The notes under the pieces: generated by a model
Seen by the model: only the letters and a program-made list of their open reading frames with translations
Databases searched by the model: none
Told to the model about the DNA's origin: nothing
Shown here: positions 52,167 to 55,864 of the stretch, piece by piece
Numbering within the stretch: position 1 is the stretch's first letter
Layout of the letters: each line of letters begins with the position of its first letter
Position numbers and translations under genes: made by a program
Assembly: GCA_021813745.1 (NCBI GenBank)
Contig: JAKAJO010000134.1
Location: forward strand, 1 to 64,000
Length of the DNA stretch: 64,000 bases
Direction of reading: 5' to 3'
From: Acidobacteriota bacterium
Lineage (GTDB): Bacteria > Acidobacteriota > Terriglobia > Terriglobales > Acidobacteriaceae

Positions 52167-53273
52167 ATGACGACTGAAGCAATCCCTACGTTGATGGCAT
52201 TTGACGATGCCTCGCTGAATCAGGCATTTGCCGCGCTCGAGCAGCAGGCGCGCGCCGACGCGGCCGCGCTCGCCACACCCGACGCTGTCGAAGCCTTTCG
52301 CCTCCACTGGCTCGGGCGCAAGCAGGGCCGCCTCAATGAGGTCTCTTCGCGCTGGCTCAAGGCCGCGCCGCCTGAGGCCAAAAAGGCCCTCGGCCAGCGG
52401 TTCAACGCCCTCAAGGCCATCGTGGAAGGCCTGCTCGACGCTGCCTCCGGCGCCGGCCCGACCGACGCCACCCTTGCTGCCGAGGCCATCGACATCACCC
52501 TGCCCGGCTCCCGCCGCCTGACCGGCGCAGAACACCCCATTACGAAGACGCTCAACGAAATCGTCAGCGTTTTTGCCGCGCTTGGGTACTCGGTCGGCGT
52601 CGGCCCCGAGGTCGAAACCGACTTCTACAACTTCGAGTGCATGAACTTTCCGCCCGGCCACCCCGCGCGCGACACGCAGGACACGCTCGTCGTCGCCAAT
52701 CAGGAGCGCCGCGCCCAGCGTGATCGTCTCCTGCTGCGCACCCACACCTCGCCCGTGCAGATGCGCACCATGGAGCAGCAGCCGCCGCCCGTCCGCATCG
52801 TCATCCCCGGCAAGGTCCACCGCAATGACGCGCAGGACGCCACGCATTCGCCCATCTTTCATCAAGTGGAAGGCCTCTGCGTCGACACCAACATCACCTT
52901 CAGCGACCTGAAGGGCACGCTCGATCACGCCATGAAAGCGCTCTTCGGCTCGTCTGTCAAGACGCGTTTCTTCCCGTCGTTCTTCCCGTTCACAGAGCCC
53001 AGTGCCGACGTGCAAATCAGCTGCATCTTTTGTGGAGGCAAGGGCTGCCGCAAGTGCAAGCACTCCGGCTGGATTGAGTTGCTCGGCTGCGGCATGGTCG
53101 ACCCCGCCGTCTTCGCCTTCGCGCAGGAAAAGCAGCCCGCCTACGACCCGAAGAAAATCTCCGGCTTCGCCTTCGGCATGGGCGTGGAGCGTATCGCCAT
53201 GATGAAGTACGGCATCAGCGAAATCGACCAATTCTACGCGGGCGATATGAGGTTTTTAGGTCAGTTTGCTTAG
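52167..53273 (+). CDS. pheS: Phenylalanyl-tRNA synthetase alpha subunit
   Basis: Class II motifs: FPPGHPARDTQDTLV, LRTHTSPVQMRTM, HQVEGLCVD, FAFGMGVERIAMMKYGISEIDQFY. Confidence 0.97.
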   Translation: MTTEAIPTLMAFDDASLNQAFAALEQQARADAAALATPDAVEAFRLHWLGRKQGRLNEVSSRWLKAAPPEAKKALGQRFNALKAIVEGLLDAASGAGPTDATLAAEAIDITLPGSRRLTGAEHPITKTLNEIVSVFAALGYSVGVGPEVETDFYNFECMNFPPGHPARDTQDTLVVANQERRAQRDRLLLRTHTSPVQMRTMEQQPPPVRIVIPGKVHRNDAQDATHSPIFHQVEGLCVDTNITFSDLKGTLDHAMKALFGSSVKTRFFPSFFPFTEPSADVQISCIFCGGKGCRKCKHSGWIELLGCGMVDPAVFAFAQEKQPAYDPKKISGFAFGMGVERIAMMKYGISEIDQFYAGDMRFLGQFA

Positions 53274-53306
53274 CAAGTCAGCAGGCCAGCAAGTTAGCAA
53301 GTCAGC
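53271..53306. repeat. Left octamer array of IVP element
   Basis: tagcaagt cagcaggc cagcaagt tagcaagt cagc; consensus YAGCAAGT. Confidence 0.85.
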
Positions 53307-53324
53307 ACAAAATGTGAATCGACA

Positions 53325-53690
53325 ATGACACGAACACGGTACTATCGGGACTTGGCAGCATGGCAAAAGTCGATGGCGCTGGCGAAGGAAATATACCGGG
53401 AGACTGAGGCGATGCCTAAGTCAGAAATCTATGGGCTCCAATCGCAGATACGGCGCTCAGCGGTTTCGGTCCCAAGCAATATTGCCGAGGGACATGGAAG
53501 ATTGAATGATGGGCATTTTCGACAGTTTCTCGCCAATGCTCGAGGTTCGCTTTTTGAACTGCAGACGCAACTTGAACTTGCCTCCGATTTGCACTTCATA
53601 GCAGGTGACAAATTTGAGGACTTAATGAAGAAAAGCGATGAAGTCGCGCGAATCATCAACGGGCTGCTTGCCACTCTGAGGGGCAACTGA
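53325..53690 (+). CDS. Four-helix bundle protein (S23/intervening-sequence protein family, TIGR02436-like)
   Basis: YYRDLAAWQKSMALAKEIYRETEAMPKSEIYGLQSQIRRSAVSVPSNIAEGHGR...FLANARGSLFELQTQLELA. Confidence 0.95.
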   Translation: MTRTRYYRDLAAWQKSMALAKEIYRETEAMPKSEIYGLQSQIRRSAVSVPSNIAEGHGRLNDGHFRQFLANARGSLFELQTQLELASDLHFIAGDKFEDLMKKSDEVARIINGLLATLRGN

Positions 53691-53710
53691 ACTTGAAGGG
53701 AGCCTACAGG

Positions 53711-53740
53711 CTCGCTAACTCGCTAACTTGCTGACCTGCT
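53711..53740. repeat. Right octamer array of IVP element (inverted)
   Basis: ctcgctaactcgctaacttgctgacctgct; reverse complement matches the left array 24/27. Confidence 0.85.
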
Positions 53741-53758
53741 CACACGGATTGAAAAGCA

Positions 53759-55864
53759 ATGAAGATTCTTACCAAGTGGCTCCGCGCCTATCTCCCTGAA
53801 CTCCCCGTCGACGACGCCCAGCTCGCCGAAGACCTCACCTTGCGCGGCATCGCCGTTGAAGGCATCTTCGACCTCGGCCCCGGCAACGGCTCGCTCTACG
53901 AGATGGACATCACCACCAACCGCGTCGACGCCATGAACCACTACGGCATCGCGCGCGAGGCCGCCGCCATCTACGGCGTCCCGCTACTCCCGCTCGACCT
54001 CACACTGCCCGCGCCCCAGCCCGCCGCCGCAGTCTTTCCTGTGCGCATTGAAGCCGAGGACGCCTGCGGCCGCTTCACCGCGCGCGTCCTGCGCAGCATC
54101 ACCGTCACCGACTCGCGCGACTGGTTCGCGCAGGCCGAAGTCGACACCTACTTCCGCTTGCTGGAGCAGAAGAAAATCTCCAGCGCCGTGGACGCCACCA
54201 ACTTCGTCTGGCTCGCCATGGGCCAGCCCACGCACGCTTTCGACCTGGACAAAATTGAAGGCGGCATCATCGTGCGCCGTGCCCGCAAAGGCGAAAAGCT
54301 CAAAACCCTCGACGGCATCGAGCGCACCCTCGACCCCGAAGATCTCGTCGTTGCCGACCACGCCAAGCCGCTCGCCCTCGCCGGCGTCATGGGCGGCTGG
54401 GACTCGATGATTACGCCCGCGACGAAGAACGTCCTCGTTGAAGCCGCATGGTTCGAGCCCATGGCCGTTCGCCGCACCGCGCGTCGCCATGGCTTGCACA
54501 CCGACGCCAGCCATCGCTTCGAACGCGGCGCCGACTTCGACGCCGCGCCCGCCGCGTCTGCACTCGTCAGCCGCATCCTGCTGGCAGCAGGCGGTTCCAT
54601 CGAGGGCGATCTCGTCGATGTCCGCGTGCCCGCTCTCGAAGCCCGCACCGCCGCGCGCAAGCCCATCGCGCTCGCACTCAGCGAAGTCCAGCGCATCCTC
54701 GGAAAGACTGTTGACGCCGAGGGCATCACCGCCGCCACCGTCGAAGGCGTCCTCGCCGCGCTGGGCTGCACGCTCGCGCCCGCAGCCACCGACGCATGGA
54801 GCGTCACGCTTCCGTCGTGGCGACTCGACGTCGAGCGCGAGATCGATCTTATTGAAGAGGTCGCGCGCGTCTACGGCTACAACCGCTTCGCCAACACACT
54901 GCCCGCCTTCGGCGGCGGCGTGACCGCGCTGCCGTGGGTACAGGCCGAGGCCGCCGTGCGCGACACGCTGCGCGCCGCCGGCTTCCACGAAGCCATCGCC
55001 AGCACCTTCTGCTCCGCGGCAGACGCTGCGCTCACCGCACCGCAGCCTGGCCTCGTCGTGCCGCTCGGCAACCCGCTCAGTGAAGAAGCCGGCGTGCTGC
55101 GTCCGTCCCTTGTGCCGGGCATGCTGGCCATGGTCGCCGGTAACCTGCATCGCGACGTGAGCGATGTGCGCCTCTTCGAAGTGGGCACGGTTTTCAGCGG
55201 CACCACGGACAAAGTCGACGAGCGGCCCGCGCTGGCCTTCGTCGCCGCCGGTCAGCTGCCCGAGCAGAGCCCGCTCCACCCCGCGCGCCTCATCGACTTC
55301 CACGATGTCAAGGGAGCCGTCGAGCAGATTCTCGCGCGCTTCCAGACGCGCACGGTCTACTTCGATCGCTTCCCGCCCGAGGCTGGCCTCACGCCCGCGT
55401 GGCTGCACCCGTACCGCTCCGCGCGTGTCGTAGCCGAGGGCACGACGGTCGGCTGGTTCGGCCAGTTGCATCCGCACGAAGCCGCGGCCCGCAAGCTCAA
55501 AGACGCGGTTCTCCTCGGCGAGCTCTATCTCGACCGCCTCTACAAGCTGCCGCTGCGCAAGCCCGCCGCGCGCGAACTCTCGCGCTTCCAGCCCGTCCGC
55601 CGCGATTTTTCCCTCGTTCTCGACCAGAGCATCGCGTGGGAGGAGATCGACGCCGCACTCGCCGCGCTCAACGTGCCCGAGATTGTCGACTGGCGCGTGC
55701 GCGAGGTCTTCCGCGATGCAAAGCTCGGTGCGCGCGACTACTCGCTGCTGCTTGGCGTCACCTTCCAGGCGGCTGATCGCACCCTGCGTGACGAGGAACT
55801 GCAAAGCTACCAGGCGCAGGTCATCGCCGCTGTGAACAAAGCTGGTGCGCGCCTGCGCAGTTAG
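53759..55864 (+). CDS. pheT: Phenylalanyl-tRNA synthetase beta subunit
   Basis: MKILTKWLRAYLPELPVDDAQLAEDLTLRGIAVEGI; B3/B4, B5, FDX-ACB domains. Confidence 0.97.
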   Translation: MKILTKWLRAYLPELPVDDAQLAEDLTLRGIAVEGIFDLGPGNGSLYEMDITTNRVDAMNHYGIAREAAAIYGVPLLPLDLTLPAPQPAAAVFPVRIEAEDACGRFTARVLRSITVTDSRDWFAQAEVDTYFRLLEQKKISSAVDATNFVWLAMGQPTHAFDLDKIEGGIIVRRARKGEKLKTLDGIERTLDPEDLVVADHAKPLALAGVMGGWDSMITPATKNVLVEAAWFEPMAVRRTARRHGLHTDASHRFERGADFDAAPAASALVSRILLAAGGSIEGDLVDVRVPALEARTAARKPIALALSEVQRILGKTVDAEGITAATVEGVLAALGCTLAPAATDAWSVTLPSWRLDVEREIDLIEEVARVYGYNRFANTLPAFGGGVTALPWVQAEAAVRDTLRAAGFHEAIASTFCSAADAALTAPQPGLVVPLGNPLSEEAGVLRPSLVPGMLAMVAGNLHRDVSDVRLFEVGTVFSGTTDKVDERPALAFVAAGQLPEQSPLHPARLIDFHDVKGAVEQILARFQTRTVYFDRFPPEAGLTPAWLHPYRSARVVAEGTTVGWFGQLHPHEAAARKLKDAVLLGELYLDRLYKLPLRKPAARELSRFQPVRRDFSLVLDQSIAWEEIDAALAALNVPEIVDWRVREVFRDAKLGARDYSLLLGVTFQAADRTLRDEELQSYQAQVIAAVNKAGARLRS

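Follow-up and report, generated by a model that had tools for sequence, protein, structure and literature searches.

A putative mobile element of operon joints at pheS-pheT: an IVP four-helix-bundle gene enclosed by inverted arrays of short words

The window, a stretch of 64,000 nucleotides from an Acidobacteriota bacterium (contig JAKAJO010000134.1; its 4.6 Mb genome is referred to as G000), carries pheS and pheT on the same strand, with a small gene of the IVP/S23 four-helix-bundle family and two inverted octamer arrays inserted between them (Table 1). The initial annotation of this DNA had proposed such a 121-aa gene, flanked by octamer arrays in inverted orientation of which the left one starts on the pheS stop codon, and all of this was borne out. 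The gene encodes an intact member of the family, as judged by the matches to Pfam 23S_rRNA_IVP (PF05635; E=7e-39, 132.7 bits at a cut-off of 33.8) and TIGR02436 (E=5e-37). Avd-type models gave weak matches (E about 1e-6), all of them under the model cut-offs, and the nearest solved structures were 2GSC (Xanthomonas XCC0516, E=4e-40) and 2RLD. With a pI of 9.05 the protein is basic, like the IVPs in general (median pI 9.0).

Table 1. Features of the pheS-pheT joint in the window
Feature	Position	Strand	Basis or remark
pheS, upstream host gene	52167..53273	+	ORF; C-terminus ..RFLGQFA* aligned with relatives
pheS stop codon TAG	53271-53273		supplied by the left array, whose first TAG it is
Whole insert, 489 nt	about 53270..53758	+	defined against the sister species, whose empty allele is ATGA
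Left tandem array YAGCRAGT, period 8, 4.5 copies	53272..53307	+	TRF, repeat search
Left inverted arm, 30 nt	53277..53306	+	26/30 positions (87%) complementary to 53714-53743
IVP/S23 four-helix-bundle gene, 121 aa	53325..53690	+	PF05635, TIGR02436, structure homologues 2GSC and 2RLD
Right inverted arm, octamers of the left array on the minus strand	53714..53743	-	repeat search
pheT, downstream host gene	53759..55864	+	ORF, orthologues

The 24/27 match between the arms that had been noticed earlier falls within the 30-nt arms of Table 1, and local alignment of the arms gives an inverted-repeat score of 40, where none of 436 random places reached a score of at least 28. The IVP gene is the sole ORF between the arms, and the ORF and Pfam searches found no recombinase or nuclease gene there. 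In the predicted RNA fold of the element the arms are paired (MFE -168.4, z -2.7).

Comparison with related genomes showed that the insert is absent from the nearest of them. In the sister species L097, which is 96% identical over pheS/pheT, the two genes are joined by a 4-bp ATGA overlap (..CAGTTCGCATGAAGATA), where G000 has ..CAGTTTGC[insert]ATGAAGATT. A bare 4-bp overlap of this kind (..GCATGAAGAT..) is often found at the pheS-pheT joint of relatives, and since the joint is empty in the next relatives L098 to L101 as well, the insertion into G000 was probably recent. The empty sites that had been anticipated in sister strains were therefore found, and with them exact ones, so that the gene is not present at this locus in all relatives; the short spacer expected to remain after removal was replaced by the ATGA overlap, and the unit, earlier placed at ~53274-53743, has to be extended to the larger insert defined by the sister allele. 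The flanks of some filled sites carry ATGA or GTGA on both sides, G000 not being among them, and no clear target-site duplication was found at the filled pheS-pheT sites compared.

Altogether 68 pheS-pheT joints were compared, and 31 of them carry an IVP gene, 23 are empty (22 with the exact 4-bp overlap) and 14 have other content. Presence and absence of the IVP at this joint are distributed on the tree in a nearly random manner (27 changes, against a mean of 30 after shuffling). The hypothesis that all pheST IVPs form one clade was rejected by the AU test (p=0.0001; p=0.019 without the divergent L089), and L089, although located at pheS-pheT, clusters with an IVP of another site with support of 100/100. 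A single ancient insertion followed by vertical descent is ruled out by the AU test and the exact empty sites, and sequence comparison thus shows that the joint was colonised more than once. Granulicella mallensis (L126) has an IVP 65.5% identical to that of the window, with the window's octamer and at pheS-pheT too, which marks the joint as a recurrent landing site. Vertical inheritance of one pheST IVP is seen in part of the genus (clade support 100/98), implying that many copies stay put for a long time.

Some pheS-pheT joints carry elements in altered form. L123 has an array without a gene, whose right end is common to the filled L253. L107 has lost the left array, and the pheS stop codon and the IVP start codon overlap there as ATGA; in L104 the left array is reduced to about one unit. 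In both the IVP ORF has stayed open despite the decay of the left array, which hints at domestication; the protein may accordingly serve the host or act in trans as well.

The association of the gene with inverted arrays extends far beyond this locus. Of 151 genomes of the Acidobacteriota family, 113 contain PF05635, with 1 to 11 copies each; in a phylum sample it was found in 99 of 199 genomes. When 170 nt on the left of the domain were aligned to the reverse complement of 200 nt on the right, the median arm score over 105 family loci was 41, as compared with 16 for arms swapped between loci, 17 for the direct orientation and 17 for random places, and 96 of the 105 loci lay above the 99th percentile of random places. 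Inverted arrays were also present at 24 of the 26 loci from the phylum search (three or four of which duplicate loci of the family set). Among named genomes, 60 of 76 loci exceeded the same percentile; these come from Planctomycetota, Bacteroidota, Clostridia, Proteobacteria, Chloroflexota, Patescibacteria, a cyanobacterium and an archaeon, and, being taken from the best 80 of the matches listed, are tilted to closer relatives. The loci are not independent of each other, the MAG assemblies possibly contain errors and the arm finder is heuristic. Nevertheless, these comparisons show that gene and arrays form one unit that is present at many sites, and the octamers of the window do not stand there at random with respect to IVP genes.

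The words of the arrays differ between elements and are alike in both arms of one element. In 93 elements the unit period was 7 in 59 and 14 in 11 (7 or 14 in 70) and 8 in eight, and the heptamer units conform to the consensus YYAGYNN, with which the window octamer TYAGCRAG is compatible. The arms of a cyanobacterial IVP (Phormidium, L180) consist of GGGAGTC heptamers. The octamer AGCAAGTY, put forward earlier as a general signal, therefore turned out to be a single instance among many words, each specific to its element and most of them heptamers, with the YAG core as their sole common part, and it was rejected as a universal signal because most elements use other words. In its strict form (two-and-a-half units, a 20-mer) it occurs three times in the 4.6 Mb of G000, two of these being at the window element.

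The array word follows the lineage of the protein and is unchanged even where synonymous sites are saturated. On the IVP tree the word class defined by the base that follows AG (AGT, AGC, AGG) requires 22 changes, against a mean of 52 and a minimum of 43 after shuffling, and IVP pairs from different sites share 0.25 of their arm 6-mers at 60-70% protein identity but 0.035 at 50-60%. A similarity of protein and arms as strong as the observed one was reached in 0 of 500 permutations. In pairs such as L015/L058, with dS of about 2 (synonymous sites saturated), the units are identical. Strong purifying selection acts on the protein itself (dN/dS 0.03-0.2). The match between word and protein phylogeny, together with the conserved units, is evidence for a cognate relation of protein and word. 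Binding of an IVP to its own array would fit this correlation, which is partly explicable by common descent of whole elements.

A landing rule also became apparent from the positions of the elements. In Acidobacteriota, 53 of 72 same-strand cases (median 2 nt) and 27 of 33 convergent ones (median 1 nt) have the outer edge of the array at most 15 nt from a stop codon. The corresponding figures for the named genomes, again for the best 80 matches listed, are 32 of 41 (median 3 nt) and 6 of 9 (median -5 nt). Where the neighbouring genes are co-directional, the operon strand carries the IVP in a ratio of 47:10 in Acidobacteriota (p=7.5e-7) and of 32:3 among the best 80 matches listed from named genomes (p=4e-7). 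Neighbouring genes were taken as the longest ORFs of at least 150 aa, so that individual neighbours may have been assigned wrongly. The two data sets are in agreement and show that arrays adjoin stop codons and that the IVP gene shares its strand with the host operon. Of the stops adjoining arrays, 56/105 and 25/50 in the two sets are TAG, more than among control stops (14/42 and 6/34). The idea that the arrays are universal stop modules, with stops in all three frames, was abandoned, since 46 of 149 left arms, against 18 expected, are too few to generalise.

From these data we consider it probable that the window holds a mobile element of operon joints, whose basic four-helix-bundle protein recognises its own terminal arrays of 7-8 nt units. 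Two features of transposable elements were found, namely exact presence and absence between close relatives and terminal inverted repeats, and the symmetric ends, matched to the protein, resemble those by which a mobile DNA unit is recognised. The initial suggestion of a discrete element, like an intervening sequence (IVS) but residing in a protein operon, is upheld by the empty sister sites and the family-wide inverted arrays. According to the literature, a solved relative of the IVP is a pentameric ring. At both ends the protein would bind the units of its own array, in the form of DNA ends or of single strands, and this might mark the unit for copying or moving. Placement on the operon strand would allow the IVP gene to be transcribed along with the host genes, and landing at a stop codon, often with a new TAG supplied, would make the insertion harmless. 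Derivatives that have lost the gene persist as bare inverted arrays, as in L123 and, for several species, at nuoD-nuoI. More tentatively, such elements could represent a bacteria-wide transposable class without a recognised recombinase, in which the IVP recognises co-evolving inverted arrays and spreads the unit, and arrays devoid of the gene, to stop codons at operon joints; rRNA IVSs would then be the special case of elements that landed in rRNA. If this holds true, the enigmatic heptamer repeats of many genomes would be gene-less array derivatives of IVP elements.

Other explanations of the same observations have to be weighed. The arms might act in RNA, pairing in the pheS-pheT mRNA so that the IVP gene is looped out and RNase III cuts the stem, the pairing being what keeps the arms matched. 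The operon-strand bias and the paired arms of the predicted fold would equally suit an RNA excision of the kind known from 23S IVSs, and the IVS of Coxiella, described below, offers a precedent. Looping-out of the IVP gene in the mRNA is thus possible according to the predicted fold, as had been proposed. However, mismatches between the arms of 93 elements have no preference for G-U pairs on the sense strand (89 sense vs 96 antisense wobbles, p=0.66, beside 161 transversions), so that the three mismatches of the window, which do become G-U pairs on the minus strand as noted initially, reflect no general strand signal. Moreover, pairing alone does not demand that the words follow the protein clade, and L107 lacks the left arm altogether. 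We therefore regard an RNA-level IVS as possible but rather doubtful. Alternatively, the IVP could be an immobile regulator beneficial to the host and kept by selection, a ring that tunes the operon by binding to the YAG repeats of the leader or intergenic RNA. TRAP, a ring protein binding spaced UAG/GAG triplets, would be a functional analogue, and the low dN/dS, the evenly spaced YAG triplets and the basic protein are in line with such a role. The nearly random presence and absence on the tree, the exact empty sites, the several origins at one site and the unrelated host genes are not, which makes this explanation unlikely.

If the element moves, a partner acting in trans may be considered. 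A RAYT-type Y1 transposase could move the arrays with the IVP as an accessory, and the copy numbers of IVP and Y1_Tnp genes do correlate in the Acidobacteriota family (rho 0.55, p=3e-13; within-genus r=0.43, permutation p=0.0008), unlike those of the reverse transcriptase. Yet among 40 Y1_Tnp genes inspected, the majority had classical REP hairpins on their flanks and none had heptamer arrays, and 10 IVP-positive genomes have no Y1_Tnp; the candidate was rejected because its genes bear REP hairpins instead of heptamers, and its involvement appears quite improbable. Retro-mobility, in which the IVP as a relative of Avd recruits a reverse transcriptase to copy the element, could draw on the weak Avd homology under the cut-offs and the operon-strand bias. 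It is made very unlikely by the lack of PF00078 matches in G000, in 53 IVP-positive genomes and in 12 genomes with six or more IVPs, and the copy numbers of IVP and reverse transcriptase are uncorrelated (rho 0.15; within-genus p=0.25); the reverse transcriptase was likewise dismissed as a partner. Finally, the arrays could be ordinary slippage minisatellites that neighbour IVP genes by chance, given that heptameric repeats are over-represented in many bacterial genomes (PMC4692102). This is hardly credible in view of the association at the family and named-genome loci, the inverted orientation with unit order matched between the arms and the absence of comparable scores at random places, and it was discarded.

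The element of operon joints that we favour shares traits with several known systems. It resembles the IVSs of 23S rRNA in its protein family, its length (about 430-490 nt), the ~28-30 nt terminal inverted repeats and the sense orientation of its ORF within the host transcript. The IVS in helix 45 of the Coxiella burnetii 23S rRNA contains a 28-bp stem that RNase III cleaves in vitro, and an S23p ORF directly preceded by heptamer repeats (GACAGAT; PMC4990558), as the IVP ORF is by array units here. In contrast to these IVSs, the window element lies at a stop codon between the protein genes pheS and pheT and not in an rRNA helix or gene, and its arms are arrays of an element-specific word. With REP/RAYT systems it has in common the design of a single gene between short inverted repeats, solo repeats elsewhere and the intergenic position, and in the Acidobacteriota family the RAYT copy number correlates with that of the IVP. 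In contrast, the IVP is not an HUH enzyme, the arms in the window are non-palindromic octamer arrays, and RAYT genes in these genomes come with REP hairpins of their own. The element is thus like an rRNA IVS in its working and like REP/RAYT in its architecture, and lacks a defining feature of each. Avd of diversity-generating retroelements belongs to a related four-helix-bundle fold family, but the window IVP scores under the Avd cut-offs and G000 has no reverse transcriptase.

Heptamer repeats have been reported as TAACTGA in Beggiatoaceae, Cyanobacteria and Bacteroidetes (PMC4679880) and as GGGAATC in Xanthomonas and Nostoc, with 70-75 inverted pairs per Xanthomonas genome, located near the upstream gene (PMC4692102). 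Neither study links the repeats to IVP genes, and both left their spread unexplained. Arrays of AGTCATT are a further published example of the heptamer class. Like the arrays described here, these repeats and the cyanobacterial STRRs are intergenic, near the upstream gene and built of 7-nt units (8 nt in the window), and the complement of TAACTGA, TCAGTTA, fits YYAGYNN. IVP genes have also been found inside cas loci (PMC3936711), in agreement with the habit of residing at operon joints.

A tie between IVPs and heptamers is of importance for two long-standing puzzles. PF05635 proteins have, to our knowledge, been orphans of 23S rRNA IVSs for decades, with no function known to us, and likewise we know of no mechanism of spread for the heptamer tandem repeats described in many bacteria. 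In the open-licence literature we found no paper that links IVP genes to arrays in protein operons or does so family-wide. The cognate relation of word and protein, the exact empty sites and the landing rule at stop codons make both puzzles testable. Caution is also advisable in annotation, as IVP genes within operons, including those in cas loci, may be passengers and not functional partners.

Several further observations concern the surroundings of such elements. The third occurrence of the 20-mer in G000 is a solo octamer array (GCTAACTCGCTGACTCGCTG), intergenic and without an IVP gene (L003, G000:C91:2624-2643). G000 has two IVP genes, and the second (L005, G000:C4:2198-2509) lies between nuoD and nuoI and has a differing inverted word (AGTGATC/AGTTNTC); at this joint the sister species carries an internally deleted IVP and several other species carry gene-less inverted heptamer arrays of other words. 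REP-like palindromes (GCGCGCTTCGCGCG, GTCCGCCGCAGGCGGAC) are nested within the octamer arrays, in both arms, of pheST elements of the genus (L102, L105, L113-L116, L119, L121, L124 and L125). The pheS-pheT joint takes other inserts too, as insertions of 600-900 bp without an IVP are present in L111, L235, L243, L249 and L269. A second recurrent landing site is seen beside an apparent ychF, where IVP elements with differing words occur in several genomes (L009, L013, L027 and L028).
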